Assembly (NCBI GenBank): GCA_017934545.1 | Contig: JAGBJI010000009.1 | Coordinates: 221,581-285,580 of the forward strand | Direction of reading: 5' to 3' | Source of the DNA: Bacteroidales bacterium | GTDB taxonomy: Bacteria > Bacteroidota > Bacteroidia > Bacteroidales > P3 | Length of the DNA stretch: 64,000 nt | Shown here: in pieces, positions 5,458 through 60,959 of the stretch | Layout of the letters: each line of letters begins with the position of its first letter | Numbering within the stretch: position 1 is the stretch's first letter | Position numbers and translations under genes: made by a program | The notes under the pieces: generated by a model | What the model was told of the DNA's origin: nothing | Databases searched by the model: none | What the model saw: only the letters and a program-made list of their open reading frames with translations

Positions 5458-5562
5458 GCCCCTTGCGAAAGTAATCTCAAAAAAATCTGATTTTTTGATG
5501 CAAAAAAATAGTTTTTTTAAGTGAAAAAATGTGTTTTTTTTAAGATTGTTTTCTGAAAGGGC
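5458..5562. repeat. family A 105-bp intergenic element, copy A1
   Basis: Inverted termini GCCCCTTGCGAAAGTAAT and ATTGTTTTCTGAAAGGGC bound three 22-bp modules with cores TCTGA, ATAG(T) and TGTGT, each flanked by A- and T-tracts. Outside this core, arms with GCCCAAT(C)GCATT-like words extend to about 5412 and 5612. The left arm (5412-5457) matches the complement of the right arm of copy A7, so A1 and A7 are in opposite orientations. It fills most of the 5198-5726 gap, which otherwise holds only a terminator and the purD promoter. Confidence 0.85.
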
Positions 5563-5689
5563 AAAAATCAAATGCCGTTGGGCAATAGAAGAATGCGATT
5601 GGGCAGTAATAAAAAAACAACTTTTTGTTTTATAGCGGTGCAACAGGCAGTTTATTCGGATAAAATTTTTCAGTGTTAAATAAAAGTCA

Positions 5690-5697
5690 TATCTTTG
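5690..5697 (+). promoter_or_regulatory. promoter -7 box of purD
   Basis: TATCTTTG, 30 bp before the purD ATG, just beyond the arm of repeat copy A1. Confidence 0.65.
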
Positions 5698-5726
5698 CAT
5701 TCTAAAATCAATAACTTAATATAAAT

Positions 5727-6995
5727 ATGAATATACTTCTTTTAGGCAGCGGCGGCAGAGAGTCGGCATTGGCAAGGGTTATAGCCAAGAGCAGTTTAAC
5801 GGAAAATTTCTTTATATCGCCCGGAAATCCCGGAATGGAGCAGTACGGCAAGTGCATAGAGTTGAAAGGATTTGAAAACATGGGCAATTTTTGTATGCAA
5901 AACCGTATTGACATGTTGGTTGTCGGACCTGAACAGCCGTTGGTTGACGGTATAAGCGACTTTTTTGCAGGGACAAAAGGGTTGAAAAACATTGTAGTAA
6001 TAGGTCCTAACAAGACAGCGGCACAACTGGAGGGCAGCAAAGACTTTTCAAAACAGTTCATGCAGCGGCATGACATTCCCACTGCACGCTATCAGACTTT
6101 CAATGCAAAGACCGTTGAGCAGGGAAAGAAGTTTTTGCAGACTTTAAATCCGCCTTACGTGCTGAAAGCCGACGGATTGGCGGCAGGAAAAGGCGTGGTG
6201 ATTGCCCAAAACCTTGACCAAGCAAAAAAAGAATTGGAAGAAATGCTTTTGGATGCCAAATTCGGACAGGCATCAAGTCAAGTGGTTATAGAGGAGTATC
6301 TTAACGGCATAGAGTGCAGCGTGTTTGTCTTGACGGACGGCAAAAATTACGTTCTTCTGCCCGAAGCCAAAGATTACAAACGTGCAGGCGAAGGCGACAC
6401 GGGGTTAAACACAGGCGGCATGGGCAGTATCTCGCCCGTTAAGTTCTGCACAGAAGAGTTTTTAAACAAGGTTAAAACCCGTATAATTGACCGAACCATT
6501 CAGGGATTACAGAAAGAAAACATACATTATCAAGGTTTTATCTTCTTCGGTCTGATGAACGTTGAGGGCAATCCTTATGTTATAGAATACAACGTGCGTA
6601 TGGGTGACCCTGAAAGCGAAAGCGTTTTCGCAAGGTTTGATTCCGATATTGTCAAGGCATTTTCTTTGATAAAAGAACAACGCCTTAACGAATATCAAAT
6701 AAAGATTTCGCCCCAAACGGCGGCTACCGTAATGCTGTGCAGCGGCGGTTACCCGCAGGAATACGAAAAAGGAAAAGTGATAAACGGATTGGACAGCACA
6801 GAGGATGCCATAGTTTACCACGCAGGAACGAAAAACGAAAACGGCAAAACCGTAACTGCGGGCGGCAGGGTTATAGCCGTAACGTGTTTGAGCGACGGTT
6901 TGCAGGCGGCACTTGACAAATGCTACCGAAATATAGGCAAAATATCGTTTGACAATAAGTATTTCAGAAAAGATATAGGCAAAGATTTGCTTTGA
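5727..6995 (+). CDS. purD: phosphoribosylamine-glycine ligase
   Basis: GAR synthetase, the second step of de novo purine synthesis, joining glycine to phosphoribosylamine with ATP. The 422 residues match the family length. The N-terminal domain starts MNILLLGSGGRESALA and contains SPGNPGMEQYG. The ATP-grasp centre includes LKADGLAAGKGV and IEEYLNGIECSVF, with metal-binding EYNVRMGDPE later and a C-terminal AGTK...GGRVIAVT segment. It is a single gene with its own promoter and terminator. purC and purE are elsewhere in the window, so purine genes are scattered. Identification is secure. Confidence 0.96.
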   Translation: MNILLLGSGGRESALARVIAKSSLTENFFISPGNPGMEQYGKCIELKGFENMGNFCMQNRIDMLVVGPEQPLVDGISDFFAGTKGLKNIVVIGPNKTAAQLEGSKDFSKQFMQRHDIPTARYQTFNAKTVEQGKKFLQTLNPPYVLKADGLAAGKGVVIAQNLDQAKKELEEMLLDAKFGQASSQVVIEEYLNGIECSVFVLTDGKNYVLLPEAKDYKRAGEGDTGLNTGGMGSISPVKFCTEEFLNKVKTRIIDRTIQGLQKENIHYQGFIFFGLMNVEGNPYVIEYNVRMGDPESESVFARFDSDIVKAFSLIKEQRLNEYQIKISPQTAATVMLCSGGYPQEYEKGKVINGLDSTEDAIVYHAGTKNENGKTVTAGGRVIAVTCLSDGLQAALDKCYRNIGKISFDNKYFRKDIGKDLL

Positions 6996-7017
6996 AATCA
7001 GAGTTTAACACAAATAT

Positions 7018-7061
7018 GACAACCGTTCATTGCCGCTCAATGCGGACATTGTCGTTTTTTT
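7018..7061 (+). terminator. terminator after purD
   Basis: An imperfect stem, GACAA-CCG...CATTG paired with CAATG-CGG...TTGTC, followed within a few bases by seven T. Confidence 0.65.
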
Positions 7062-7093
7062 ATAACGGATAATTCAGAAAAAAATATAAACCG

Positions 7094-9466: not shown

Positions 9467-9540
9467 AATATATTTTATTTTCAATACATTTTATTTCAGC
9501 CCCTTTTCCATTTACCGACGCCGAAATATTTTTCTACGCC

Positions 9541-9645
9541 GCCCTTTCTGAAAGTAATCCGAAAAAAAACTATTTTTTTAAGCCAAAAAATGTGGTTTTT
9601 TAATGCAAAAAATCAGATTTTTTTGCATTTACTTTCGCAAAGGGC
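9541..9645. repeat. family A 105-bp element, copy A2
   Basis: Termini GCCCTTTCTGAAAGTAAT (9541-9558) and TTTACTTTCGCAAAGGGC (9628-9645). Three modules with cores ACTAT, TGTGG and TCAGA at 22-bp spacing. It sits between the convergent LRR gene and baiN. Confidence 0.9.
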
Positions 9646-9715
9646 GGCGGCATTGCGGCTGCGGGCGGCAACCGAAAGCAAAAAGGCATTAAAAAAATGT
9701 TAAAAAAACTTAATG

Positions 9716-11837: not shown

Positions 11838-11846
11838 TATGTTAAG

Positions 11847-11921: not shown

Positions 11922-11941
11922 GTCTTTATAATTTCAGTTTG

Positions 11942-11949: not shown

Positions 11950-12156
11950 CACATATTTACTTTACCTGCAAAGAAAATCGGAATAATTTTTTAAATTATT
12001 TTTATATCACCCTGATTTACAGAATACAGTTTTTTTTTCATTACATTTTTCAACACTACATATATAAATTAAAAACAACAGTCTGCCCGCACCATTGCGT
12101 AACATCTCACAAAACCTATGTATACTTACTCTCTGCCGCATTGTTTTCAAAGAACA

Positions 12157-12256
12157 AAATAAAAAAACATATGTATTTGAAATAAAAAACATATGTTTTT
12201 TGATTAAAATTCATATGTTTTTTTGAAAAAATACATATGTTTTTTATTTTTCTTTT
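12157..12256. repeat. family B CATATG element, copy B1
   Basis: Four CATATG cores at 12168, 12190, 12212 and 12234, spaced exactly 22 bp, each between A-rich and T-rich tracts, with a trailing TTTTTCTTTTCTGAAAAG. It occupies the middle of the 11922-12338 gap between tRNA-His and der. The remainder of that gap holds AT-rich sequence and two promoters. Confidence 0.9.
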
Positions 12257-12306
12257 CTGAAAAGGATAAGCAAAAAGTGCAATTTCACGGTTTTTATAAA
12301 ATTTTG

Positions 12307-12314: not shown

Positions 12315-12338
12315 CAAAAATTTATTCATTTTACGGCC

Positions 12339-17257: not shown

Positions 17258-17343
17258 TTTTTTTCATATAAACCCCCTAACGGCTTTTTTTATCCGCCCC
17301 TTTTTTGAATAAAAAAAGCCGTTTTTTTATTCAAACCCGTCTT

Positions 17344-17490
17344 ATACATATATTATATATAGGTTTTAATTAAAAAAACTCCCCTATACATATATTATAT
17401 ATAGGTATAGTATTAAAAAACCGTCTTATACATATATTATATATAGGTATAATGATAAAAATATGCACTGTACATTATATATATAGGTGT
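17344..17490. repeat. 42-bp-period array of four ATACATATATTATATATAGG units
   Basis: Units begin at 17344, 17386, 17428 and 17470 (the last as GTACAT), spaced exactly 42 bp. Each about 20-bp AT-rich word is an imperfect palindrome. Spacers contain A-runs. Confidence 0.9.
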
Positions 17491-17503
17491 ATTTTTTCAA
17501 AAA

Positions 17504-17576
17504 GAGGTCGGAGAAAAATAAAAAGAGGTCGGAGAAAAATAAAAAGAGGTCGGAGAAAAATAAAAGAGGTCGGAGA
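17504..17576. repeat. 21-bp tandem array of GAGGTCGGAGAAAAATAAAA
   Basis: Four units start at 17504, 17525, 17546 and 17566 (21, 21, 20 bp). A purine-only block on this strand. Confidence 0.9.
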
Positions 17577-17651
17577 AAAATAAAAAAAACGCCCGATTAC
17601 ACTAAAAACAAGCCCAATAAAATCCGTCAGAGGCCGAATAAAGTTCAAAAA

Positions 17652-17807
17652 GTGCCGCTTTTACATCTAAAAAGTCTGACCTTTCGTTAAAAAAGTCCGA
17701 CTTTTCTCATAAAAAGTCCGACTTTTTGCTTAAAAAGTCCGACTTTTTGAAAGAAAGGTTGGATTTTTTAAAAGAAAAGTCAAACTGTTTGACATGAAAT
17801 GTCCGAC
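17652..17807. repeat. 21-bp-period AAAAAGTCCGACTTTTT array
   Basis: Core GTCCGAC or variants at 17652 (GTGCCGC), 17674, 17695, 17716, 17737, 17758 (degenerate), 17779 (GTCAAAC) and 17801, spaced 21-22 bp. Each core has A5 before and T5 after and forms a palindromic module like the family A and B modules. Confidence 0.9.
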
Positions 17808-18163
17808 TTTTTGAAGTTAAAACGGCGTTTTACGGATTTTATTGGGCGTTTTATGATTTTTTTTCGGCCTTTTTTTATTTTTCTTCGGCGTTTCTTTATT
17901 TTTCTTCGGTGTTTTACCTTTTTTTTATTCCCGTTCCGACGTTTTTTTTTTCGTTGCTTTGCTGTCGGAAGAGGGCGGTTTTTACTCCGGTTGCGGCGGT
18001 TTACGGCGGTTTTTTATAAAAAATTGTAACTTTTTGCGGTTTTGAATTGTTTTATATGTGTATTTACAGCGGCCAATGCACAAAAAAGCAAAAAATAACG
18101 CAGAAATATATGCCTCAACCTCAACATATTATGAATAAAAATGCAGATTTTTTGAATTTTTAT

Positions 18164-21350: not shown

Positions 21351-21524
21351 AATGATTCTTATTAAATTGTTCCTATTGGTTAAATTAAATTATTTTGGTT
21401 TAAATACACCAACTATAACGCAGTTTTTCACAAAATATTGTCGGTGTTCAGCAGTATAACATAATATTACGGTAAAAAATCCGCCCATTGACAAAAAACC
21501 GTTGCCCGAAGCGTAAACGTTTTT

Positions 21525-21629
21525 GCCTTTTCTGAAAGTAATCCTAAAAAAATCACATTTTTTCACTGAAAAAACCTATTTTTTTGACTCAAAAAATGTG
21601 GTTTTTTCAAAATTACTTTCGCAAAGGGC
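21525..21629. repeat. family A 105-bp element, copy A3
   Basis: Termini GCCTTTTCTGAAAGTAAT and ATTACTTTCGCAAAGGGC; cores TCACA, CCTAT and TGTGG at 22-bp spacing. It overlaps the 3' end of the radical SAM gene (stop at 21576), so it supplies that protein's last codons. Confidence 0.9.
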
Positions 21630-22544
21630 GGCGGCAAAAACTAAAAAAGCGGCAGCAAAACCCAAAAAGGCAGGAATTAAAACAGGGGAAAGTTGTTTTT
21701 CTTTTTGCGGAAATTCTTTCAGATAGGCAAAAATCCGTTCGGGTCCGTAGATTATGCCGTATTTGTTGCAGGTTTCGTCGTAAAGATTCATCAACCGTGC
21801 GTTATAAGGCGAAAGTATTTGGTAACTGTTTGCGTAAGTATCAATGTATCTTTGCTTCAAAGCGGGGTCAAACCTGTCCAAAAACCTGTAAAAATACTCT
21901 CGGTTGCCTTCTCTCAATGTCATACCCATGCCGAAGCACACAATACCTCTCACATCATTGGCTACGCAGGCGTCAAGTATATTTTTGATGTTTTCTTCCG
22001 TATCCGTAATGAAAGGAATTACGGGACTGAGCCATACAACCGTCGGTATGCGGTGGTGTTTCAAGGTTTCCAACACTTGGATTCTCTCTTGCGTGGTGCA
22101 GACATTGGGTTCAATGGCTTTGCTCAATGTTTCGTCCGTGCAGGTTAAGGTTATCTGAACCACGCACTTGGTTTTGCCGTTGATTTCCTGCAACAAATCC
22201 AAATCCCTCAACACTCTGTCGGATTTGGTTATCATCGTTGCCCCGCAGTTGCGGTTGTTGATAACCTGTAAGCACCTGCGGGTAAAGCCGAGTTCGGTTT
22301 CAACGGGCTGATACGGGTCTGACATGGAACCCGTTCCCACCATACATTTTTGCCTTTTGCGTTTAAGTGCGTCATCCAACAGTTCAACGGCGTTGGATTT
22401 GACCTCAACGTCTTCCAATGCGTGCGTAAAGCCGTAGCATTTGCTCCGCGTGTCGCAATATACGCATCCGTGCGTGCAACCGCGGTATATGTTCATGTTG
22501 CTTCCCGCTCCCGTGAGAATATTTTTTACAGTTACAAAGTGCAT
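21576..22544 (-). CDS. SPL-like radical SAM protein
   Basis: A 322-residue radical SAM enzyme of the SPL/Rv2578c type (related to spore photoproduct lyase). The 4Fe-4S motif CTHGCVYC (CX3CX2C, Cys 23, 27, 30) follows MNIYRG. GTGSMSDPYQPVE, TKSDRVLRDLDLL and VVWLSPVIPFITDTEENI are typical of the group. The reaction is unknown for most members. The last roughly 20 residues (ALCESNFEKTTFFESKK) are read from family A repeat copy A3, and the preceding Ala/Phe-rich stretch is low complexity. The original stop was therefore probably replaced by the repeat insertion. Confidence 0.85.
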   Translation of the reverse strand: MHFVTVKNILTGAGSNMNIYRGCTHGCVYCDTRSKCYGFTHALEDVEVKSNAVELLDDALKRKRQKCMVGTGSMSDPYQPVETELGFTRRCLQVINNRNCGATMITKSDRVLRDLDLLQEINGKTKCVVQITLTCTDETLSKAIEPNVCTTQERIQVLETLKHHRIPTVVWLSPVIPFITDTEENIKNILDACVANDVRGIVCFGMGMTLREGNREYFYRFLDRFDPALKQRYIDTYANSYQILSPYNARLMNLYDETCNKYGIIYGPERIFAYLKEFPQKEKQLSPVLIPAFLGFAAAFLVFAAALCESNFEKTTFFESKK

Positions 22545-26460: not shown

Positions 26461-26605
26461 CGTATTTTCTTTATAATAATAAAATCATGCCGTTGAAATT
26501 TAATGCAAAAAACTGCCGTTACAAACACTTATTGCACAAAAAAGTATATTCCGCTTTTCCAATGCCCTTTTTCACCATACCGCCGCCCCAAGCGTTTTAA
26601 TTTTT

Positions 26606-26710
26606 GCCCCTTCTGAAAGTAATCCGAAAAAAAATAGGTTTTTTGCCCCAAAAAATCACATTTTTTGACAGAAAAAATCTGATTTTTTCACTCTTCTTTC
26701 CGCAAGGGGC
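26606..26710. repeat. family A 105-bp element, copy A4
   Basis: Termini GCCCCTTCTGAAAGTAAT and CTTCTTTCCGCAAGGGGC. Both ends carry the compensating C-G change (GCCCC/GGGGC). Cores ATAGG, TCACA and TCTGA. It fills most of the 26456-26810 gap between divergent genes. Confidence 0.9.
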
Positions 26711-26764
26711 GGAAATGTTTTGACAAAAGGCGGCAGTTTTTTTCGGCAATACAAAGAAAAAACT

Positions 26765-31977: not shown

Positions 31978-32115
31978 CAACTTTTTTCAATACTGACAAT
32001 ATTTTGGGTGATTTTTTTTGAAAAAACATTTTTTCTTTCTCTTTTTCTTTTTGCATTTTCATAATTTTCTGTTGCCCTTTTACTGTTTTTTGCCGCCCCT
32101 TGTGTTTTAAATTTT

Positions 32116-32220
32116 GCCCCTTGCGAAAGTAACTTCAAAAAAATGTGATTTTTTGAGTGAAAAAACCTATTTTTTTGAGGCAAAAAATATGGTTTTTTCG
32201 CACTTACTTTCGCAAAGGGC
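32116..32220. repeat. family A 105-bp element, copy A5
   Basis: Termini GCCCCTTGCGAAAGTAAC and CTTACTTTCGCAAAGGGC; cores TGTGA, CCTAT and TATGG. Outer arms with GCCGCCC words reach about 32090 and 32265. With tRNA-Arg, its promoter and the purE promoter, it accounts for the 31687-32416 gap. Confidence 0.9.
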
Positions 32221-32344
32221 AAAAATTATATGCAGAAGGGCGGCAGAAAACACTAAAGGGGCGGATATAAAGTATTGAAGAAGTATTTTGCGGATAAGAA
32301 CGTGATTTTGCGGCGGTAATGTTTTTTCTTTAAAAAACTCTTTG

Positions 32345-38420: not shown

Positions 38421-39836
38421 TTACCGTTTTATTATTTTCTTTGTTATTAAAGTACCGTCTTTGCTGTATATCATAACAGTATATACACCTGCATCCAAAG
38501 TGCTTATATCCACCGTGTTTTCCCCGCCGTGCAGCACACCGTCTGTACGCTCGGCTGCCTTTATGTCGGCAATTGCAAACCGTGCTTCTTTGTCACATTT
38601 TATTTTAATATAGTTTTCCGCAGGAACGGGGTAAATCTCTGCCTGCATATGCTTAGCCAGGTCTATCGAAACGTTTTTCGGCACAAGTTCAATGTTGACT
38701 GTTTCCGTACCACCCGTCATTGCAATTTCTTCCACCTTGTCATTGTACCCGTCTTTTGAGAACTTAACCGAATATGTCCCTTGTTTGATGCAACGGTTGT
38801 AAAATCCCTGACTGTCGGTGTACACCTGCGACGAATCTCTGTCGTGGTCCGATATCTCTATCTTCACTCCGTCCAACTGTTTGCCCGTAACGCTGTCGGT
38901 GACCGTACCTTTGAAACCTTGTTGCAGGTAATCAAAGAAGACGAACAAGGATTTGTGCAAACGCACCCAATACAAAGGCAGTTTATCGGCCTGCGGAATG
39001 TAATCGTCGGAGAGTTCCAAAGTCACTTCGGGGCAATGGGCGTAGTATGTACTCCAATCCTGACGCGAACCTCCGATTACGTACCAATCGCCTCCGTCAA
39101 TAACGCCCGAAGAGTTGACGCTTTTGAAATACGTTCCGCTTTCGTCCTGCAGTGCGGCAACAAAATCTTTTCCCAAATCCTCAAACCACTGTCGGTCTGC
39201 GTGGGTTTTGACCGACGAAGTATATTTGTCAAACGGATAATTAAACACTTCGCTGCCCGTATGCAGATTGCAACTCATGTGAAACCTATGCTGCAATTGA
39301 TAATCCATAAACGCCTGCGTTTCGGGTTGCGTTTTTTTGCCGTCGGAATTGTTTTTGGTGGCAATGTCTTTGTAGTTGCGGTTAAGGTCTACGTAGTTGG
39401 CGTTGTAGCGTACGGGATTTTTTATTTTGCCGTCCGTGCTGTTGTTCCACGTTCCGTCAGGGTTGGCAAAAGGGTTTATATATATTTGTATATTGTCAAG
39501 TAATGCGGCAAACTCTTCTTTGTTTGCCGTCAAAGTATCTATCAACCGCATAAGCATTACTGCACCCGTCAGTTCGTTGCCGTGCATTGCGGCGGAATAA
39601 AAGAATCTCGGCTTGGGCAAATCTGCTTTTATCTGCGAAGTAATACTCATGCACAGTATAAGCCGTCCGTTGATTGAAGTGCCTATTGTATCTAAACGGC
39701 ATATGTCTTCGTTTTGCTGTGCAATGTTCTGCATAAAAGATATATATGTGTCATAATCAGGATATTCGTCCCACTTTTGAGCATATCCCGTAAGCCATAT
39801 CAGTGCAGTCAGAACTATAAGCCAAACTCTTTTCAT
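38421..39836 (-). CDS. secreted M14 zinc carboxypeptidase with T9SS sorting domain
   Basis: A 471-residue secreted metallocarboxypeptidase. The signal peptide ends in TGYAQ. The M14 zinc site is visible as MHGNELTGA (HxxE) and CNLHTGSEVFNYP (His), with the catalytic Glu in CPEVTLELSDD. A carboxypeptidase-regulatory-like sandwich follows (GFKGTVTDSVTGKQLDGVKI), then a roughly 80-residue type A T9SS domain (IYPVPAENYIKIKCD, DISTLDAGVYTVMIYS, KKIIKR). I chose the ATG at 39836; the longer reading starts upstream of the promoter. It heads the operon with the beta-barrel and waaA-tamL genes. Confidence 0.9.
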   Translation of the reverse strand: MKRVWLIVLTALIWLTGYAQKWDEYPDYDTYISFMQNIAQQNEDICRLDTIGTSINGRLILCMSITSQIKADLPKPRFFYSAAMHGNELTGAVMLMRLIDTLTANKEEFAALLDNIQIYINPFANPDGTWNNSTDGKIKNPVRYNANYVDLNRNYKDIATKNNSDGKKTQPETQAFMDYQLQHRFHMSCNLHTGSEVFNYPFDKYTSSVKTHADRQWFEDLGKDFVAALQDESGTYFKSVNSSGVIDGGDWYVIGGSRQDWSTYYAHCPEVTLELSDDYIPQADKLPLYWVRLHKSLFVFFDYLQQGFKGTVTDSVTGKQLDGVKIEISDHDRDSSQVYTDSQGFYNRCIKQGTYSVKFSKDGYNDKVEEIAMTGGTETVNIELVPKNVSIDLAKHMQAEIYPVPAENYIKIKCDKEARFAIADIKAAERTDGVLHGGENTVDISTLDAGVYTVMIYSKDGTLITKKIIKR

Positions 39837-39861
39837 AACGCAAGAAAATTGTTTTAAGTCA

Positions 39862-39869
39862 CAAAGATA
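39862..39869 (-). promoter_or_regulatory. promoter of M14 peptidase-envelope operon
   Basis: TATCTTTG on the minus strand, 25 bp before the chosen ATG. Confidence 0.65.
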
Positions 39870-39969
39870 CAAAAAATAACGATACCGTAAATAAAAAATG
39901 TTTATTTTTATCATTCCCTGCGGCATAACGGACAAACAAAGCGTGGTTTTAAAAATTTGTTTTCAGAAA

Positions 39970-40070
39970 AGAAAAATAAAAAACATATGTATTTTTTCAA
40001 AAAAACATATGAATTTTAATCAAAAAACATATGTTTTTGAAAGAAAAAACATATGTTTTTTTTATTTAGG
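39970..40070. repeat. family B CATATG element, copy B2 (inverted)
   Basis: CATATG at 39984, 40006, 40028 and 40050, spacing exactly 22 bp. It is in reverse orientation to B1 and B3: its complement reads nearly the same, including the TTTTTCTTTTCTGAAAA end. It fills most of the 39837-40196 gap between divergent units. Confidence 0.9.
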
Positions 40071-40196
40071 TTCCCAAAACAATGTACTGTGAAGCAAATC
40101 TATTGCTTCATTGAGGCATGGCGGCATAGGTGCAATGTGCATTTGCGGTACAATATTTCAGCATAATATGCGTTTACATTCTTATAAATTTATCCT

Positions 40197-45330: not shown

Positions 45331-45475
45331 TACATTTTTTTTTAATCTGCAAAATATTTTCTTATTTTTTTTAATTTTTTATAAAAATTTACGCTTTTGT
45401 TTTTTCCGTACTCTGCAAAACCATCTCTCCGCCATAGGCAGTACTTGGTTTAACAATGCTCTTTTGTGAATCAAA

Positions 45476-45580
45476 AGAAAAAAAAACATATGTTTTTGAA
45501 ACGAAAAACATATGTTTTTTGATTAAAATTCATATGTTTTTTTGAAAAAATACATATGTTTTTTATTTTTCTTTTCTGAA
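45476..45580. repeat. family B CATATG element, copy B3
   Basis: CATATG at 45487, 45509, 45531 and 45553 (22-bp spacing). The sequence from the second core to the TTTTTCTTTTCTGAAAAG end is nearly identical to B1. AGGCAGTA before it (about 45436) and TACTGCCT after it (about 45592) form an outer inverted repeat. It lies in the 45225-45696 gap. Confidence 0.9.
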
Positions 45581-45654
45581 AAGAAATTTTTTACTGCCTA
45601 AAACAATGCTTTAAGTTTAGGTTTGTATTATTTTGTCATCTGAAAAAAAATCCG

Positions 45655-52421: not shown

Positions 52422-52548
52422 TACAATCACAATGTTTTTGATTTTATACGTCAATATTTCCTTGCGGTTTTAACTCATTAACGTCTTTAAAGACATTTTT
52501 GCTGCCGCCTCTTGTTCCTTCATCGCTGCCCTATCGCATTACGCTACT

Positions 52549-52653
52549 GCCCTTTCAGAAAAGAATTTCAAAAAAATCACATTTTTTCACTTAAAAAACC
52601 TATTTTTTTGAGGCAAAAAATCAGATTTTTTTACGATTACTTTCGCAAAGGGC
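52549..52653. repeat. family A 105-bp element, copy A6
   Basis: Termini GCCCTTTCAGAAAAGAAT and ATTACTTTCGCAAAGGGC; cores TCACA (52577), CCTAT (52599) and TCAGA (52621), spaced 22 bp. It shares cores and termini with A7. Outer arms with ATCGCATT/AATGCGAT words reach about 52530 and 52695. It accounts for most of the 52366-52846 gap. Confidence 0.92.
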
Positions 52654-52790
52654 GGAATTTTTACCGCATTGAGCAAAAAGAAAATGCGATGAAGCAACAA
52701 TTAAGTGCAGTTAAATGTAATTTAATTGCAAAAATGACGGAGATAAAATAAGGCGGGGCGGAGATAAAGAATAAGAAAATACATAATAAA

Positions 52791-52830: not shown

Positions 52831-52846
52831 AAAAAATCAGTTTACA

Positions 52847-55800
52847 TTATTTTACTATCAATTTTTGAGTCACATCACCGACTTTGATATAATAAACGCC
52901 GCTTTGCCAACCTCTGACATCAATTTCGGATTTTTGAGATTGGATATTTGATTTATAAACTACTTGTCCTATACTATTAATAATAGTAATTGCGTCAGTA
53001 TTATCCAATACCAAATCTCCCAAATCCAAAATAACAACGTCTTTTGCAGGATTAGGGTAGACAGTAATAGTTTTTGTGTCTTTTACGTCTTCAATACCTG
53101 CATAACCTTGCAATGTGAATTTCTTTTCTGTACCGAAGATTGTATCATTTGAAGTTCTTACAAAGGCTCTGACATACATCTCTGCACCCTTATTTAAGTC
53201 AGACAACGTCGTATGCAAGTCCTCACCGTCATAATAAGGAAAATCTTCCGTCAATTGTGCGATTGTTTCATATTTCCCGCCGCTGTATTTAGCCTGAATA
53301 CCGAATTCTTTCATGGTGCTGTAATCGTTGGCAGTAAATTTACCATGCAATGTTACGGATGTTTCGGTTATGTCGGTAGGTTCCATTGTCGTTGCCGTAA
53401 TTTTTATGGTTTGGTTAAGTGTTGTAAATGTTTTTTCACCGCCGAATATAGTATCGGTATTGGTTACCACATATACACGGTAAGTGTAAGAAGTACCTTT
53501 GCTCAATCCGTCAGCAAGTACATTCAAATCTTTACCTGCTTGGGCGGAGAAATTACTTGTAAGATTACCGAGTTTGGTGTATGTTCCGCCGTTGGTTTTC
53601 TTTATTTCAATTGCAAACTCTTTGAAATTGGTGTATTTATCGGCAGTATATTTACCGTATATAATTGCAGAAGTATTTGCAATATGGTCGGCCTTTACTG
53701 TTGTTACAACTATATTATCCGTATTGGTATTAGCCAATGTTTTGAAACTCTTTTCCGTTCCGAATATCGTATCATTGTTTGTAGTTACGACATAACATTG
53801 GAAATATAGTGTAGCATCGGAATTTAAATCTGTCAGATTTATTCCCAACTCTTGCCCTGCATTTGCAGCGAAATTACTTGTCAATTGTCCGACCTGTTGG
53901 TAAGTTTCACCCGAGTACTTTGCACGGATATAAAAACCTTTCATCTGGAAATAATCATTGTCGCTGCAGGTATATTTACCGTTTAATCTTGCCGAAGTGC
54001 TTGTTATATCTGTTGCATCCAAAGTTGTTACCGTAATATTGACAGTTGGTTGAAGAGTTTTAAAAGTTTTTACTTCTCCGAATGTAGTATCTCCGCTCAC
54101 TACTGCAAAAGCACGGAAAGAATAATCAGTGTTTGCAGTCAATCCTGTCAAATTATAAGTAAGAATGCTGCCAGTAACATTTACTTTACTGTAAGCAGTA
54201 GCGGAAGATTTTTTGTATTGGAATCCTTTAGCGGATATTGTACCGTTGGAAACTGTTGCCGTACCATTAAGGGTTGCTGTTGTTTGTGCAATATTTGTTG
54301 CAGCACTCGTAGTAACGGTTACCGTCGGTTGAGGAGTTGAATTTTGTAATGTTTTAAAAGTTTTTACTTCTCCGAATGTAGTATCTCCGCTCACTACTGC
54401 AAAAGCACGGAAAGAATAATCAGTGTTTGCAGTCAATCCTGTCAGATTATAAGTTAAGGTACTGCCCGTAACATTTACTTTGCTGTAAGCAGTAGCGGAA
54501 GATTTTTTGTATTGGAATCCTTTAGAAGATATTGTACCGTTGGTAACTGTTGCCGTACCGTTAAGTGTTGCCGTTGTTTGTGCAATATTTGTTGCTGCAC
54601 TTGTCGTAACTGTTACTGTCGGTTGAGGAGTTGTGTTTCCAAGAGTTTTGAATGTTTTAGCTTCTCCGAAAATTGTATCTCCTTCAAACGCAGCATAAGG
54701 GAGTAATGTATATTCTGTATTTGGAGTTAAATTGTCTATTTTCATATAATTACCCTCAAATGATATATCATTGGCATAAATAGAAGCGGAAGATTCTTTT
54801 AACAGAAATCCGTAATGTGTAACCTTTGTTGGATATACACAGTTGGCAGGATAAACAATGATACTGGATAATTCTCCGATTTTTTGCCAATATCCGGTTA
54901 CATAAGCGTAACTTTGTTCAGGGCCTACAGAACTGATTAAAAATTTCGACGGATAATATGTATAAACACTCTTCCAACCGTTTTTCCAATAGTAAGAATA
55001 ATTATCTGTTTCATCGGATAGTACAACAACACTTTTTCCCTTTTCCGAATAACCAAGTCCAATATCCGTTGTAGGAGGTTCTTTCGGAAACATATAAATA
55101 TAAATACTATCACAACCTGATAATACTTGTTGTCCCATAGAAGAAACATTTTCACCTATTGCAATAGATCTTAATTTAGAGCAATTACTGAATGCTTTAT
55201 TCCCTATTGCAATAACACTGTCCGGTATATTTACACATGACAAACTTGTACAACCACTGAATGCTTCACTGCATATCACTCTTAAATTATCAGGAACATC
55301 AAAACTGCTTAATGTACTGCAATTTTTAAAAGCACTACTACCTATATATCTTACATTTTCTTTGATATTATAAGAAGCATAACTTTTATCTGTGGCTTCA
55401 ACTAAAAAATTATCAGCGTACCGTATATTGTTTTCTATTGGCAAACTTTGACAATTTTTGAATATTTCACTTCCGAGATAAGTAATACTATCAGAAAGTT
55501 TAATGTTCTTTAGATTCGTACAACCATAAAAAACGGAATCATATATTGTACGTATATTTGCAATATCTACATATTTAAGTCCTGTACAATTACAGAAAGC
55601 GGCTTTACCTATAAACTCCAATGAAGACGATTTAACGGTATCTACAATATCACTATTATACATGAAATATGCTGGAATATATCTAACGGTGTTTCCTATA
55701 TTTAATTTAGTAAGATTTGAACAATTATCTAACCAATTTGTATAAATAGTCTTATTGCCATATATAGGACTAAAGCCCTTACCCGAACAACTGTCAGCAT

Positions 55801-57550
55801 TATAATTTATAGTTATAAGACCTGTACAATTTTTGAAAGCATATTCAGATATATTTACTACGGATGCAGGAATCGTTATCTGTTTAACATTCTTCTGATT
55901 TACCAAAAAATAAGGAGGAATATATTTCACGTTTTCTCCGATAGTTACTGTTTCCAAATTAGGACTATCTTGCAACCAATGTATATTTTCAGTAGACTGA
56001 ACTTGATAACAACTGTCAGCATTGTAGTTTAATGTAGTTAATCCTGTGCAATTCTTAAAAGCAGAGATACCTATACTCTTTACTTTTTCAGGTATGCTTA
56101 TTGTTGATACTTTGCTTTTACCAAAAATAAAATACGACGGAATGTATTTCACATTATTTCCTATATTTACTGTAGTAAGCTCTGTCCAAGTAACAGTACA
56201 ATCGGAAAGATATCCTGCATTACAACTATCAGCATTGAAATTAAATTCAGTTATCCCACTGCAGCCATAGAATGCATTTTGACCTATAGAAACAACTTGT
56301 GTAGGAATCGTTATTTTTTTTATATTTGGGTTACTTTGACTGATGAAATTATTGGGAATAACTTTTACTGTATCGTCTATGATTAACTTTTCTATTTGAG
56401 AACAACCATATATCCAGTTAGTACTAGTAAAACCTTCTCCGGAACAACTAATCGCACTATAGTTTATAGTTTTTAATTTGCTGCAATAAGCGAATACCCC
56501 TTTACCCATATTTTCAACGCTATTACCTATCGTTACAGATGATATATTTGAACAAGCATTAAACGCACCATCTCCGATATCCGTAACCTTATCAGGTATA
56601 AATGCATATTTCAAAGATGTACAATTTGAAAAAGCATATTTCTCAATGGATTGAAGATTAATAGTTTTCATAATCTCCTCTAAAGATTTACAATTAGAAA
56701 ATGCTCTTTCTGGTATAGTAGCAATATTAAGACTCAATGAAACTTCAGTCATGGATGCACAATCGGAAAATACCCGTTTTCCGATGGATGTCACACTATT
56801 CGGTATTGCTATACTTGTCAGATTAGCACAACCTTGAAATGCTCCATTACCTATTGTTTCAAGTGATTCTGGCAAAGTTATATCAGATATACTACAATAC
56901 GCAAAAGAGGAATCTCCAATAGAAGTCAATTTATCCGGAAGTGTGATTTCTGTAACTTTTGATTGATTATATATAAATTTATCTGGGATGGTTTTCACAG
57001 AGTCACCTATAATAACATTTGTTATAGGCAAATTATAAAACCAACCGTTACCTGTGCCTTCGTACTTACAATCAATAGCAGTCCAATTAATATAGGATAA
57101 TGACGAACAGCCCTCAAATGCCTCACTGTGCAGATAAGAAACACTCTTTCCTATCTTAATTTCATTTAATTTGGAACAAAGAGTGAAAGCCTTACCAATC
57201 GTCGTTACACTATCAGGAATATTTATAAAAGTCAATTTTGTACAACCATGAAAAGCGTGAATACCGATTTTCTTGATAGAATTTGGTAAAGTAACACTGG
57301 TTAAATTTATACAACCGTTAAAAGCATTATCTCCTATGTCCGTAACATTGTATGTTTTTCCATTATATGTTACCGTAGAAGGAATTGTAACACTTCCAGA
57401 GTAACTATTATAACTAAGGCTTCCATAAGTAACATATACATTACTTCCTCCATTGTTACCATAGAAAATGCCATTTACATAGAATGTTAAACCATGAACA
57501 GATGCAACAGAAACTACTGTCGCAATAAGGATTGCAAATAATTTTCTCAT
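52847..57550 (-). CDS. giant BspA-like leucine-rich-repeat surface protein with FN3-like repeats and T9SS domain
   Basis: A 1567-residue secreted protein. The signal peptide is MRKLFAILIATVVSVASVHG. Residues about 60-860 are some 30 LRR_5 (BspA) repeats (for example IGDNAFNGCINLTSVTLP, IGKAAFCNCTGLKYV). Residues about 880-1480 are six FN3-like domains; two of them, about 970-1164, are nearly identical at DNA level. The end is a type A T9SS domain (VYPNPAKDVVILDLG, GWQSGVYYIKVGD, KLIVK). BspA-like proteins bind host proteins or other bacteria. A related 344-residue gene lies 92 bp upstream on the same strand. Expression is likely from the same transcript. Confidence 0.92.
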   Translation of the reverse strand: MRKLFAILIATVVSVASVHGLTFYVNGIFYGNNGGSNVYVTYGSLSYNSYSGSVTIPSTVTYNGKTYNVTDIGDNAFNGCINLTSVTLPNSIKKIGIHAFHGCTKLTFINIPDSVTTIGKAFTLCSKLNEIKIGKSVSYLHSEAFEGCSSLSYINWTAIDCKYEGTGNGWFYNLPITNVIIGDSVKTIPDKFIYNQSKVTEITLPDKLTSIGDSSFAYCSISDITLPESLETIGNGAFQGCANLTSIAIPNSVTSIGKRVFSDCASMTEVSLSLNIATIPERAFSNCKSLEEIMKTINLQSIEKYAFSNCTSLKYAFIPDKVTDIGDGAFNACSNISSVTIGNSVENMGKGVFAYCSKLKTINYSAISCSGEGFTSTNWIYGCSQIEKLIIDDTVKVIPNNFISQSNPNIKKITIPTQVVSIGQNAFYGCSGITEFNFNADSCNAGYLSDCTVTWTELTTVNIGNNVKYIPSYFIFGKSKVSTISIPEKVKSIGISAFKNCTGLTTLNYNADSCYQVQSTENIHWLQDSPNLETVTIGENVKYIPPYFLVNQKNVKQITIPASVVNISEYAFKNCTGLITINYNADSCSGKGFSPIYGNKTIYTNWLDNCSNLTKLNIGNTVRYIPAYFMYNSDIVDTVKSSSLEFIGKAAFCNCTGLKYVDIANIRTIYDSVFYGCTNLKNIKLSDSITYLGSEIFKNCQSLPIENNIRYADNFLVEATDKSYASYNIKENVRYIGSSAFKNCSTLSSFDVPDNLRVICSEAFSGCTSLSCVNIPDSVIAIGNKAFSNCSKLRSIAIGENVSSMGQQVLSGCDSIYIYMFPKEPPTTDIGLGYSEKGKSVVVLSDETDNYSYYWKNGWKSVYTYYPSKFLISSVGPEQSYAYVTGYWQKIGELSSIIVYPANCVYPTKVTHYGFLLKESSASIYANDISFEGNYMKIDNLTPNTEYTLLPYAAFEGDTIFGEAKTFKTLGNTTPQPTVTVTTSAATNIAQTTATLNGTATVTNGTISSKGFQYKKSSATAYSKVNVTGSTLTYNLTGLTANTDYSFRAFAVVSGDTTFGEVKTFKTLQNSTPQPTVTVTTSAATNIAQTTATLNGTATVSNGTISAKGFQYKKSSATAYSKVNVTGSILTYNLTGLTANTDYSFRAFAVVSGDTTFGEVKTFKTLQPTVNITVTTLDATDITSTSARLNGKYTCSDNDYFQMKGFYIRAKYSGETYQQVGQLTSNFAANAGQELGINLTDLNSDATLYFQCYVVTTNNDTIFGTEKSFKTLANTNTDNIVVTTVKADHIANTSAIIYGKYTADKYTNFKEFAIEIKKTNGGTYTKLGNLTSNFSAQAGKDLNVLADGLSKGTSYTYRVYVVTNTDTIFGGEKTFTTLNQTIKITATTMEPTDITETSVTLHGKFTANDYSTMKEFGIQAKYSGGKYETIAQLTEDFPYYDGEDLHTTLSDLNKGAEMYVRAFVRTSNDTIFGTEKKFTLQGYAGIEDVKDTKTITVYPNPAKDVVILDLGDLVLDNTDAITIINSIGQVVYKSNIQSQKSEIDVRGWQSGVYYIKVGDVTQKLIVK
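54057..54644. repeat. two 294-bp tandem copies inside the LRR gene
   Basis: 54057-54350 and 54351-54644 are nearly identical, each encoding one 98-residue FN3-like domain. High DNA identity indicates recent duplication and a site for copy-number change. Confidence 0.85.
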
Positions 57551-57593
57551 TTTATTTGTTTTTTATTTGTCAAACTTCTAATGTTCTTTTTAA

Positions 57594-57625
57594 AAGGAGG
57601 TATACCTAAATAGATATACCTCCTT
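57594..57625 (-). terminator. terminator or attenuator between two LRR genes
   Basis: Stem AAGGAGGTATA/TATACCTCCTT, with T-rich continuation on the minus strand, located just after the 344-residue gene. Confidence 0.75.
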
Positions 57626-57642
57626 ATATGCAAATGTTTAAC

Positions 57643-58677
57643 CTATTCAACAATTAATTTCTTGGTAACATTACCTACTGTGATGTAATAAACACCGGTT
57701 TTTAATGATGTAGTGTTTAACGTGTAAGATGTAGCATTTGGTTTAGTTTCCGATAAAATCAATCTGCCTTGTGCGTCATATACATTGATTGTCATATGCT
57801 CCGCATTACATTCTACATTCTCTATAACTACAAAGTCTTTTGCAGGATTAGGATAAACGGAAATTATATTGCCTTCTGCGACATCATCTATACCGACACC
57901 GCCGCAATTTTCTACAATATTGAACCATTTCCAACCAGCACTTGATTGATACACGGCTTTTTGCCCACAAGGAACTATACAAGTAATATTTTTGGATAAT
58001 CCCTCAAAAGCATAATCCGCTAAATCTGCAGGTACATCTGCTTTGCAAATTATAGTATCTAAACGATTGCAACCGGAAAAAGCATCAGGCCCGATGTATT
58101 GTAAATTTTTTCCTATAGTTAGTTTCCCACTTAAAAACATATCATAAAAACAAAACCTAAAAGCATTACCTTGTATAGCTACAACAGGGCATGATTTTCC
58201 GTTATAGGTTATGTTGTCAGGAATAGATATATCTACTATTATATTATCAAAGTCATCTCCCTCAAACATTGAAGGCGGATATGTATAATCTATAACTACG
58301 GCTTCATCTGAATCAGTGAATCCATAATACAAATCACCTATTTTTACACCTTGAAGCGTTGTGAATGTACCGATTGCTTTAAGATGTTCATAATCCCCAG
58401 TGGTGTTTGTAGTGTAAACTTCGTACGTAGTATTCGGGTCTAAACCGGAAAAAGTTACATATTTTCCCCAAGTTCTGGTACGCAACTCTTCCCATTTATA
58501 AGAAGATGCACCTTGTTTCGTTATAGCAAGAGTAGTGATGTAACCGGATACATCGTTATCCCCTGCGATAATCGTCACCGACGTTCTGGTAAGACTTCCT
58601 ACTGACCATGCAACAGCGTTGCCGCTTACTACTACTGTCGCAATAACAATTGCGACGAATTTTACTAATTTTTTCAT
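57643..58677 (-). CDS. small BspA-like T9SS surface protein
   Basis: A 344-residue secreted protein. The signal peptide is within MKKLVKFVAIVIATVVVSGNA. Residues about 25-105 are an FN3-like domain (YVTFSGLDPNTTYEVYTTN, FTTLQG). About 110-240 hold one or two LRR_5 repeats (VAIQGNAFRFCFYDM, IGPDAFSGCNRLDTI). The last 75 residues are a type A T9SS domain (VYPNPAKDFVVIENV, LKTGVYYITVGNVTKKLIVE). It looks like a compact relative of the following giant protein. It starts 15 bp after an unknown gene. Confidence 0.88.
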   Translation of the reverse strand: MKKLVKFVAIVIATVVVSGNAVAWSVGSLTRTSVTIIAGDNDVSGYITTLAITKQGASSYKWEELRTRTWGKYVTFSGLDPNTTYEVYTTNTTGDYEHLKAIGTFTTLQGVKIGDLYYGFTDSDEAVVIDYTYPPSMFEGDDFDNIIVDISIPDNITYNGKSCPVVAIQGNAFRFCFYDMFLSGKLTIGKNLQYIGPDAFSGCNRLDTIICKADVPADLADYAFEGLSKNITCIVPCGQKAVYQSSAGWKWFNIVENCGGVGIDDVAEGNIISVYPNPAKDFVVIENVECNAEHMTINVYDAQGRLILSETKPNATSYTLNTTSLKTGVYYITVGNVTKKLIVE

Positions 58678-58692
58678 CTTATTTATCCTTTT

Positions 58693-59652
58693 TTAATTTT
58701 TGTTTGTTATGTAATTTTCTTTCCAATGGTTTAATAATGAAGACATACATTCTTTGTCTGACAGACCTTTGAATATATCTTCCGCCTTCATCGTCTTAAA
58801 TTTTTCAACAATAATCTTATTGATGTCTGCAGAGTAGGTTGTCACAACTATTCCGTCAGTTCCTTTCCGTTGTTTATCCTCTTTACTGCACAACGCAGGA
58901 TATGCTGTCCACATCCTTTTATTGTATTCCTCTGCACTTTCTCCGTTATTAATTTCTAACTTCAGGTTTTTAATAAACTTTTTGTAATCATCTTCAGCAA
59001 GCAATAAAGACAAATTACCGTTAGAAAATTTACCCATCCGCCAAAGATAAGCATCCAAAATATCAAATTGCTGCATACCATCAAACAAGACGTCTTTGTC
59101 AAAAATTTTCTTTCTGACAATATCCAAATCATCTATATATGTATGAATATTCTCTGCATGAGTCTTATTCTTGGTTATACCTAATATCTTGCAAAGTTTC
59201 GGGTAAGAAGCAACAGCCAAATTGTCATAAATAGGAAAACCTATCGGGTCATTATCCTTATTAGTCATAAAGACATAATAGATATATTTAGACAATAACG
59301 AAGTTTGAAGAGAACCTAATGATAAATTTTTACGAATACCGTACTGTGTACTGAACAATTCTTTGTCATCAGCCCCTTTCTCACGGATAGTTTTTGCGTA
59401 TTGAATAAACTTGCTTTCATCGCCGAATGACAGAATCTTATCTGCAATATGTTCCAATCCGAAATAATTGAAACTTGCATTGGTTGTGTACATAGAATCA
59501 AGCACCGTAAGTCTTAAAACTATATTCTCTTTACTGTAATTTTCTTTTGTTGTTTCAAACAATCTGCTCAACAAAGACTTTTGTTCAAAGTAAGCAACAT
59601 TACTTTCGTCTTTTGCAATAATGTTGAAAACATGTTTTAATTCATCGTTCAT
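58693..59652 (-). CDS. hypothetical protein, possible HhH-GPD/OGG-like fold
   Basis: A 319-residue cytoplasmic protein without signal or membrane segments. I cannot assign a family with certainty. The segment LGSLQTSLLSKYIYYVF followed by GFPIYDNLAV and later DAYLWRMGKF resembles the S..SK...H....FPIYD / LW..GK pattern I associate with OGG-like DNA glycosylase-fold proteins that occur in phage-defence neighbourhoods. The match is from memory and key catalytic Lys/Asp residues were not confirmed. It lies 15 bp upstream of the T9SS surface protein genes. A 360-bp leader with a G9 run and an 18-bp hairpin precedes it. Confidence 0.5.
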   Translation of the reverse strand: MNDELKHVFNIIAKDESNVAYFEQKSLLSRLFETTKENYSKENIVLRLTVLDSMYTTNASFNYFGLEHIADKILSFGDESKFIQYAKTIREKGADDKELFSTQYGIRKNLSLGSLQTSLLSKYIYYVFMTNKDNDPIGFPIYDNLAVASYPKLCKILGITKNKTHAENIHTYIDDLDIVRKKIFDKDVLFDGMQQFDILDAYLWRMGKFSNGNLSLLLAEDDYKKFIKNLKLEINNGESAEEYNKRMWTAYPALCSKEDKQRKGTDGIVVTTYSADINKIIVEKFKTMKAEDIFKGLSDKECMSSLLNHWKENYITNKN

Positions 59653-60014
59653 ATTTTTCTGCGCAGATAACCCGCTGCGACACCCGGGATTGACAGTGAA
59701 TAATTATGTTTCTGTATCTTTCTTCTTTTGGTTTATTGTTTTCTTGTCTGCCGTCATACAATATACACGTCATTTTACAGCACTATATAATGCAAGTAAG
59801 GAGTACGCACGCCTACGTGCATACTCCTTACTTAATATATTATATAAATTCTTTTCTGTGTTTGCTATACGGTATTGGAATAAAGCAAAAATACCCCCCC
59901 CCATACATTTAGTAATGAGGTGGTTATATTGTTATTTTGTTTGCTTGTATGCAATTTTTGTTCAATCATACGTCAAATTTCCTTGATTTGATTTTGCAAA
60001 TATACGAAAAATAA
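59653..60014 (-). promoter_or_regulatory. long leader with promoter, G9 run and hairpin
   Basis: This 362-bp gap has no ORF of note. On the minus strand it holds a -7 box TATATTTG (60004-59997), a run of nine G (plus-strand C9 at 59894-59902), and an 18-bp hairpin (59794-59811 with 59816-59833, one G-T type mismatch) about 140 bp before the start at 59652. The hairpin could be an attenuator. Confidence 0.55.
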
Positions 60015-60416
60015 TTATCTCTCAATCCAATTTTCAATATTAATATCCGGTATTCTTGCCAAATGCTTTACATTATCCGTTACCATAATCATATTATTTT
60101 TCACCGCCGTTGAACCGATTAACAAATCAAAATCATCTAATTTCTGTCCTTGTTTTTCTAACAACACTCTGTTGTCAGCGTAAGTTTCCAAACTATCATA
60201 TATATGTACAACAGAGAACGAATTGATAAATTCGCTTGTTATCTGCAAAGATTTGTTAGGATTATTGCTTTTTTTGGCTCCGTAAAGCAACTCAGCAACG
60301 GTAATATCCGATATAAAGCAATTCTCTTCTCCTCTTTCAAGGATAAATTTGTCTATATCATACATTCCCCGTATAAAGAAAATACAAATATTCGTATCTA
60401 AAAGGTATCGTTTCAT
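60015..60416 (-). CDS. vapC: VapC-type PIN-domain ribonuclease toxin
   Basis: A 133-residue PIN domain. Acidic residues appear in the expected order: YLLDTNICIFF (Asp7), ITVAELLYGA (Glu near 42), FDLLIGSTAV (Asp near 98) and VTDNVKHL (Asp near 117). VapC toxins cleave tRNA or rRNA and are neutralised by the cognate VapB. It starts 16 bp after the small upstream gene, forming the typical antitoxin-toxin order. The terminal INIENWIER is common in this group. Confidence 0.9.
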   Translation of the reverse strand: MKRYLLDTNICIFFIRGMYDIDKFILERGEENCFISDITVAELLYGAKKSNNPNKSLQITSEFINSFSVVHIYDSLETYADNRVLLEKQGQKLDDFDLLIGSTAVKNNMIMVTDNVKHLARIPDINIENWIER

Positions 60417-60432
60417 TGTCTTGTAGTTTTAA

Positions 60433-60717
60433 TTAATCAAACGAAACAATTTTACGGGAATATTCTCTGCCTTGATTGCGTGCTTGGGCAATGTCGTTTT
60501 GCATTTGCTCTCCTTCTTCTCCGGATAATGCACCGTACAAACGCATCAACTTTGACTGTTTTTGCAATATGTTGTCATCGGACATTATCATATTGAAATA
60601 TATGATAACCTTATTAACTTTATCTCTGTCATTCAGATTAACGAAATCGTGAATAAAGTTGTATTTCATTTCCGCTATACTTTCCGTAGTTGCCATAATA
60701 CGAGTTTTACTTTTCAT
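60433..60717 (-). CDS. putative antitoxin partner of VapC
   Basis: A 94-residue protein upstream of vapC. TESIAEMKYNFIHDFVNLND then helical KVIIYFNMIMSD; the C-terminal half (GEQMQNDIAQARNQGREYSRKI) resembles antitoxin tails that bind PIN toxins. No clear AbrB or RHH DNA-binding fold is visible at the N-terminus. The start could be the ATG at 60717 or one at 60696; the promoter -7 box ends 12 bp before the former, so translation from 60717 would be nearly leaderless. Called antitoxin mainly from context. Confidence 0.7.
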   Translation of the reverse strand: MKSKTRIMATTESIAEMKYNFIHDFVNLNDRDKVNKVIIYFNMIMSDDNILQKQSKLMRLYGALSGEEGEQMQNDIAQARNQGREYSRKIVSFD

Positions 60718-60728
60718 TTATACTGTTG

Positions 60729-60736
60729 CAAAAATA
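60729..60736 (-). promoter_or_regulatory. promoter of vapBC-type pair
   Basis: TATTTTTG on the minus strand, fitting TAnnTTTG. Confidence 0.55.
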
Positions 60737-60854
60737 CGAAATGTTTTTCAATTAACAATATCTTCAATTAAAAACTACGCATTGATTACCAATCCCACTG
60801 CACCTAATCTCCGCCTTTTCTTCACTCACCGCTGCTTTTTCGTATTACACTGCC

Positions 60855-60959
60855 GCCCTTTCAGAAAAGAATCTCAAAAAAATCACATTTTTTCACTAAA
60901 AAAACCTATTTTTTTGCATTAAAAAATCAGATTTTTTTACGATTACTTTCGCAAAGGGC
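60855..60959. repeat. family A 105-bp element, copy A7
   Basis: Termini GCCCTTTCAGAAAAGAAT and ATTACTTTCGCAAAGGGC; cores TCACA, CCTAT and TCAGA. Its right arm continues to about 61010 with AATTTTTATTGCATTGGGC-like sequence. In the 60718-61344 gap it is followed by plain AT-rich sequence (61020-61195) and a 32-bp array. Confidence 0.92.

Follow-up and report, generated by a model that had tools for sequence, protein, structure and literature searches.

In this window, a stretch of 64,000 nucleotides from contig JAGBJI010000009.1 of the Bacteroidales bacterium assembly GCA_017934545.1, a short repeat (family A) recurs between the genes with letters that change from copy to copy and a length that does not, and the question that it raises is what is being conserved. 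The preliminary description of this DNA had reported seven copies of exactly 105 bp, and all seven are found at the positions given below, each with that length and in a gapless alignment. Given that the spacing is kept and the letters vary, what the copies conserve is probably a DNA shape, namely a strong bend predicted by models. The genome (here G000; Bacteroidales, 2.38 Mb, 14 contigs) was examined over the whole of contig C1 (335,302 bp), parts of contigs C3, C4 and C7, and the window, and was compared with two sister species, G001 and G009. The copies in the window, with the full extent of each and its 105-bp core, are the following:

5416..5604 (core 5458-5562), no strand: family A copy 1, in a tandem gene pair
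9499..9687 (core 9541-9645), no strand: family A copy 2, in a convergent gene pair
21483..21671 (core 21525-21629), no strand: family A copy 3, overlapping the 3' end of the radical-SAM gene 21576-22544(-)
26564..26752 (core 26606-26710), no strand: family A copy 4, in a divergent pair, upstream of the SAICAR synthetase gene
32074..32262 (core 32116-32220), no strand: family A copy 5, between tRNA-Arg and the AIR carboxylase gene
52507..52695 (core 52549-52653), no strand: family A copy 6, downstream of tRNA-Leu, convergent
60813..61001 (core 60855-60959), no strand: family A copy 7, tandem

Each window copy consists of an 18-bp terminus of the GCCCTTTCNGAAAGTAAT type, 4 bp, three A6-N5-T6 modules with 5-bp spacers, another 4 bp, and the inverted 18-bp terminus. 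The modules repeat at 22 bp and the centres of A-tracts and T-tracts alternate every 11 bp, an arrangement that has the features of phased A-tract DNA, namely A/T runs of 4-6 or more, ~10-11 bp apart, over several turns. When 49 combinations of core and spacer (periods 16-28) were scanned over 459 kb (C1, part of C3 and the window), hits were obtained at periods 21-23 only. The cores had been described as drawn from a small set, and this is borne out by their middle three bases (strands collapsed), which are mostly CTA, CAC or CAG (62, 40 and 23 of the 138 modules in 46 copies of this genome, with 13 others). The three cores of a copy show a weak tendency to differ from one another: the same core occurs twice in one copy in 16 identical pairs versus 25.5 expected in G000 (p 0.004), and the corresponding p values are 0.054 in G001 and 0.18 in G009.

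The 105-bp unit stands as the core of the element, but the element does not end there, since flanking 21-bp units go on outward. The whole measures ~189 bp and has dyad symmetry, with two more GCC-started 21-bp units on each side, and the GCC/GGC-anchored units reach ~+/-94 from the centre in G000. Averaged on the centre, the 33 copies of this genome place the GCC starts at -94, -73 and -52, 21 bp apart and mirrored opposite; in G001 (25 copies) and G009 (29 copies) the starts lie one base nearer the centre, again 21 bp apart and mirrored. In each of the three species the flanks of these copies carry a G+C signal that repeats every 10.7 bp. In the window, a repeat finder likewise saw similarity past the 105 bp, in families 185 and 149 nt long.

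Searched with a gapped profile, ~560 kb of sequence (all of C1, portions of C3 and C4, and the window) yielded 45 full-length matches outside a separate repeat family, C, described below; 33 of these are labelled family A, and the other 12, on C4, have no family label. Two shorter C4 matches, one a family C element and one a 92-bp relative with other arms, were excluded from this set. The length is 105 bp in 43 of the 45, 104 in one and 106 in one, so the fixed length proposed in the preliminary description is upheld within this genome, and the varied length that it had named as contrary evidence was not seen. Two of the 45 form a rare, divergent subtype with CCCCC/CCGGG cores, both 105 bp long, at C1 6946-7050 and at 57832-57936 of the joined C4 stretch (L177-L181). 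The 92-bp relative, at 34890-34981 of the same stretch, has CCCAC cores and GCCTTATCAC-type arms. Contigs C4 and C7 (L177-L186) are identical over 100 kb save for 2 mismatches in 100,000; the assembly contains them as duplicate contigs, in agreement with its contamination score of 8.1%, and a strain-level comparison of C4 with C7 was dropped on this account.

Sorted by type, the elements in the 459 kb number 33 (family A), 21 (family B) and 11 (family C). Contig C1 carries 24 family A elements (72 per Mb) with a coefficient of variation of spacing of 0.87, which rules out an even placement along the chromosome. Judged against the gene calls made in this analysis, 4 of 65 module blocks lie mostly within genes, though the coding fraction is 79-89%. 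The contexts of the 33 family A copies, 14 tandem, 12 divergent and 7 convergent, do not differ from those of intergenic gaps of at least 250 bp (convergent, Fisher p 0.41).

Three modules at a 22-bp period and the 21-bp GCC units recur in both sister species, with letters that are partly different. In G001 the modules are A7-N3-T7, with CAG, CCC, CTA and CAC middles and GCCCCGTGGCG-type arms, and in G009 the middles are mainly CTC, CAG, CCC and CTA. A complete turnover of core words between species was considered and is weakened by the middles that are partly common to the species; on the letters compared, the word sets appear shifted and not wholly replaced. At one orthologous gap, both G001 and G009 have an element just upstream of the ortholog of window gene 38421-39926. 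These two elements (L190:58 and L166:8557) align without gaps over 189 bp with 111/189 identities, and their module block matches better when flipped (51/61) than directly (41/61) while the flanks keep their order, hinting that the block may be able to invert between its arms. Upstream of the same gene G000 has the family B element at 39972..40080.

Families B and C of this genome are built on the same phase from other words. Family B has four modules with CATATG cores at a period of ~22 bp, and family C has three or four modules, also at ~22 bp, with CCTGC/GCAGG and CCACT/AGTGG cores and GCCGA-type arms. Three family B elements lie in the window:

12156..12264, no strand: family B element with four CATATG modules in ~22-bp phase
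39972..40080, no strand: family B element adjoining gene 38421-39926, on its upstream side
45475..45583, no strand: family B element

No family B element lies in a convergent gap (0/21), which differs from family A (Fisher p 0.035) and not from the gap background (p 0.12). An A5-N6-T5 family, its cores being CCTATG, CCATGG and CCCTGG, occurs in G009. A further genome, G002, has three mutually similar elements (L089, L094, L099) of 22-bp modules with GCCCC, ACCCC and CCACC cores and arms unlike those of family A.

It had been proposed that selection acts on geometry and not on sequence. This is the best reading of the data, because each of the three species keeps phase and length but varies in its cores, spacers and arms, and because two other repeat families of G000 have the same phase. 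The part of the proposal that does not stand is an absolute fixed length: the distance from GCC to GGC is 103 bp in 24/28 copies of G001 and 24/29 copies of G009, one base less per side than in G000, and the idea of one length for the whole genus was dropped. The conservation of helical phase is well supported.

The reach of the pattern was followed with a three-module search (61 bp, up to 2 mismatches, forward hits counted) of 41 genomes together. It gave 190 hits in G000, a number that includes neighbouring registers and family C, 95 in G001, 40 in G009, 3 in G002, 2 in G006 and none in the other 36, a distribution that excludes a chance origin. A reversed-pattern control, which retains the A/T phasing and is not a neutral null, gave 25, 7 and 1 hits in G000, G001 and G006. 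With a looser pattern the reversed control gave up to 158 hits versus 179 forward (G001), so that looser counts mean little alone. A family-wide search placed the pattern in 5/190 genomes, all of one genus, and in an even sample of the order, which contained no other species of the genus, the only one of 393 genomes with the pattern is the present one. The closest named relatives of one window protein, at 74-80% identity, are the metagenome-assembled genome Phil12 (L009), a roe-deer rumen isolate (L010) and Candidatus Scybalousia scybalohippi (L011); G002 and L009 are probably one and the same assembly, so that G002, G006, L009, L010 and L011 amount to at most four independent genomes.

The shape of the elements was predicted with two models, an A-tract phasor model and a wedge model. 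In the phasor model, all of the top 45 separate windows of 105 bp in the 335 kb of C1 are family A, B or C elements, a ranking that is partly circular given that the elements had been found by their tract pattern. When each 105-bp core was set against the mean of 8 dinucleotide shuffles of itself in the wedge model, it came out more compact in 33/33, 25/25 and 29/29 copies of G000, G001 and G009. For the 24 family A copies on C1 the predicted median 73-bp bend is 98 degrees in relaxed DNA (top 0.76% of windows) and 147 degrees at 5% underwinding (top 0.11%), the median for C1 being 36 degrees, relaxed and underwound alike.

The proposed mechanism starts from a dispersed intergenic repeat family of ~189 bp that would be gained and lost in the manner of miniature inverted-repeat transposable elements (MITEs), and whose conserved trait would be a curvature in phase with the helix and symmetric about a dyad. 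Six A/T tracts, spaced 11 bp apart, and flank units with ~10.7-bp G/C periodicity would together form a strong bend. This bend would lower the cost of a supercoil (plectoneme) tip at that place, or a DNA-bending protein would wrap it, and the elements would serve as topological landmarks in the intergenic regions. The 11-bp spacing suits underwound over relaxed DNA in the model, and the bend should accordingly strengthen with negative supercoiling. The step from phase to bend is predicted by the shape models, and the step from bend to supercoil would hold by analogy with Kim et al. 2018 (PMC6301789), who report that plectonemes are pinned by intrinsic curvature and that a 75-bp curved insert suffices; it is from this chain that we infer a function for the elements. 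That the bend is the selected trait and has a topological role is the favoured explanation, held tentatively at close to an even chance. A wider proposal is that the lineage has evolved, and repeatedly re-worded, a dedicated torsion-responsive bend: with modules set for underwound DNA (11 bp per turn), each element would bend less in relaxed DNA and strongly under negative supercoiling, and families A, B and C, with their common 22-bp phase, would fix supercoil tips genome-wide as a sequence-encoded chromosome scaffold; this would be an unlikely outcome.

Several observations weigh against a selected bend with a topological role. Curvature alone requires neither the strict alternation of A-tracts and T-tracts nor a small core vocabulary. 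In the relaxed wedge model generic arrays bend more at a 20-bp period (122 degrees) than at 22 (65), and it is in the underwound model that the 22-bp period is best (121 degrees vs 99); the natural spacing would then not be optimal for relaxed DNA, and either it is tuned to underwound DNA, or the period is set by a protein, or the model is off. Over 201 bp of relaxed DNA the median of family A on C1 is only at the 5th percentile of compactness, and coding windows make up most of the top 40. The length is not universal, being 105 bp in G000 and 103 bp in its sisters. Single positions are not essential: for six family A elements traced from two C1 stretches, an element stands beside the ortholog in 2 cases in G001 and in 0/5 examined in G009. 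Among the other 13 genomes of the genus, 9 have no hit to the strict pattern and 7 have none to the looser one. Finally, flank unit 1 of G009 pairs better within copies than between them (11.90 vs 10.38 of 21, z 4.4), and in that species this covariation counts against shape as the whole explanation; palindrome correction or mixed registers might alternatively account for it, some G009 rows being out of register in a way that may inflate the contrast.

In the main rival explanation the element is a protein-wrapped site, with a dimer on each A6-N5-T6 palindrome, two turns apart on one face, or with the dyad wrapped by gyrase, HU or a similar protein. In its favour, all modules are palindromes of an A-tract and a T-tract, spaced 22 bp apart, and the element as a whole is dyad-symmetric. 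According to PMC6379681, the Escherichia coli gyrase motif is symmetric, spans ~130 bp and has arms with a G/C periodicity of 10.75 bp, and BIME-2 repeats (bacterial interspersed mosaic elements, BIMEs) are enriched in gyrase sites. The combination expected of a strong gyrase site, symmetry with ~10.75-bp G/C periodicity in the arms, is found here in three species (10.7 bp). In the same account, however, the centre of the gyrase motif (~36 bp) lies outside the periodic arms; in the present elements no part is phased more strictly than the centre. All 14 genomes of the genus have HU-family genes and 5/14 have the strict pattern, so that HU genes do not track the elements, and HU copy number was rejected as the partner. 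No cognate protein has been identified, and no search was made for genes confined to element-rich species. A protein-wrapped site is, on balance, a somewhat unlikely explanation.

The inverted arms could also fold, in RNA or in extruded DNA, as a hairpin or cruciform serving as a terminator, an mRNA end protection or an attenuator. The preliminary description had seen compensating changes in the termini, given that GCCCC faces GGGGC in the copy at 26606; the other copies with GCCCC (5458 and 32116) have AGGGC at the far end. In a permutation test in which arms of the same copy were compared with arms from different copies, the terminal unit has no within-copy pairing excess in G000, G001 or G009, and the claim is not supported. 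Unit 2 of G000 is only borderline (p 0.03 with 46 copies, 0.18 with 33), unit 3 of G001 pairs worse within copies (z -3.1), and no within-copy excess is present in the remaining units of G000 and G001 out to 94 bp, unit 1 included. The G009 unit 1 excess given above favors pairing, with the same caution about its out-of-register rows. As RNA, the 105 nt fold well below dinucleotide shuffles (mean z -5.7 in G000, -7.4 in G001 and -7.1 in G009), a result that any dyad-symmetric element would give. A copy's own halves fold lower than chimeric halves in 20/29 copies of G009, and do no better than chimeric ones in G000 (24/46) and G001 (14/28). A permissive Rfam scan of copy 5 returned long-hairpin families, all below their gathering scores. 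The suggestion that the elements are not simply terminators is supported by the 12 of 33 copies that lie in divergent gaps; an intrinsic terminator, which would be expected at 3' ends and not in divergent gaps, was rejected as the main role on the same count. A hairpin or cruciform as the conserved trait is considered very unlikely.

A selfish miniature mobile repeat, with ends recognised by a transposase, recent copying and no gain to the host, would account for the high copy number, the restriction to one genus and the intergenic location. Orthologous sites with and without an element point to gain or loss. In two gaps whose neighbours are both conserved, G009 is occupied and G000 is empty (gap lengths 413 vs 180 and 596 vs 229), which is the combination of occupied and empty sites expected of a MITE, and on the 3' side of the radical-SAM gene an element is present in G000 and absent in G001. 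The gap upstream of the SAICAR synthetase gene is occupied in both G000 and G001, and no element was found at the SAICAR synthetase loci of L009, L010, L011, L195 (G002) and L196 (G006). These serve as single cases only, given that in the table of orthologous gene ends some pairs are double and the G001 and G009 loci were partly chosen for their elements. Target-site duplications were sought at offsets of 85-189 bp and lengths of 3, 4, 5, 6, 8 and 9 in 46, 28 and 29 copies (~1,900 trials per species), and none is clear, the largest excess being of 3-base matches (6/46 or 6/29, with ~1.5-1.9 expected). Inverted arms are present; nonetheless, beyond the units the conservation decays gradually with no sharp edge, and no solo end pair or longer partner was noticed among the profile hits in the ~560 kb, the rest of the genome being unread. 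The near-invariant length despite divergent flanks speaks against neutral decay. The Y1 (REP-type) transposase, PF01797, is found in 0/14 genomes of the genus, other transposase families not having been searched, and in 5/14 known genomes used as a control. Carriage by phages or plasmids is unsupported: viral contigs gave 0 exact pattern matches, and one copy used as a query against phage and plasmid records, with the simple-sequence filter on, gave no match. A purely selfish repeat is rather unlikely.

Other features of the window touch these elements or their surroundings. The radical-SAM frame (21576-22544, minus strand) extends ~34 codons beyond the stop of its G001 ortholog, into family A copy 3; its C-terminal tail may be partly encoded by the repeat, and a sequencing error is also possible. 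An intergenic gap of ~970 bp holds, at 17333-17908, more phased arrays with other words: 42-bp units with TATACATATATTATATATAGG, 20-21-bp units with AGAGGTCGGAGAAAAATAAAA, and AAAAAGTCCGACTTTTT palindromes at ~21-22 bp. Arrays of ~32-33-bp units (TAAACTGCAATACTTTT...), about three helical turns, lie at 61200-61329 and 62664-62795 and flank gene 61345-62619 (AAA_14/DUF4143) on both sides. At 54050-54637 there are two 294-bp repeats, head-to-tail and 92% alike, within the 1567-aa open frame 52847-57550 (minus strand).

As for catalogued families, the absence of a match holds for Rfam, given that in a scan of the window with Rfam 15 only four tRNAs rise above the gathering score. Literature searches, which did not reach most subscription journals, turned up no title or opening of an abstract that describes this layout. 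What sets the elements apart is a natural, discrete, nearly fixed-length and high-copy form, with related species that have it and lack it. The occupied and empty orthologous sites make the question testable, since the same gap can be compared with and without the element.

The comparison with known systems begins with bacterial DNA carrying phased A-tracts at ~11-bp periodicity. In PMC3940949, PMC4132750 and PMC516772, A/T runs likewise occur at the helical repeat and are linked to curvature and supercoiling, and in E. coli they are concentrated between genes, as here. The phased A-tracts of those accounts are genome-wide statistical signals, whereas here they form a discrete, dyad-symmetric, fixed-length repeat with a vocabulary of modules. 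The repetitive extragenic palindromic (REP) sequences and BIMEs, as presented in PMC2817692 and PMC3733652, are likewise palindromic, extragenic, composite and present in over 100 copies per genome. Unlike them, the present elements come with no Y1 transposase in 14 genomes, for which reason membership in REP/RAYT was rejected, and they have a 22-bp A/T-tract unit and a length fixed within species. MITEs, enterobacterial RU, and pneumococcal BOX and RUP are also short dispersed intergenic repeats, and MITEs have inverted ends as well; in contrast, no clear target-site duplication, sharp ends or parental transposon was found here, and phase is conserved above sequence. The strong gyrase sites of E. 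coli and their motif (PMC6379681) are likewise dyad-symmetric and over 100 bp long, with a 10.7-10.75-bp G/C period in the arms. That motif is degenerate and has a separate central part, whereas the elements here recur as copies whose A-tract centre is strictly phased; if they bind gyrase, they would be a Bacteroidales analogue of BIME-2. A likeness to the predicted bend itself is given by curved250 and the 75-bp curved inserts that pin plectonemes (PMC6301789), which are likewise short intrinsically curved stretches of 75-250 bp. If the present elements place supercoils, they would be the natural counterpart of those designed sequences: the inserts were designed and measured, whereas the elements described here are natural and repeated, with a curvature predicted from their sequence.

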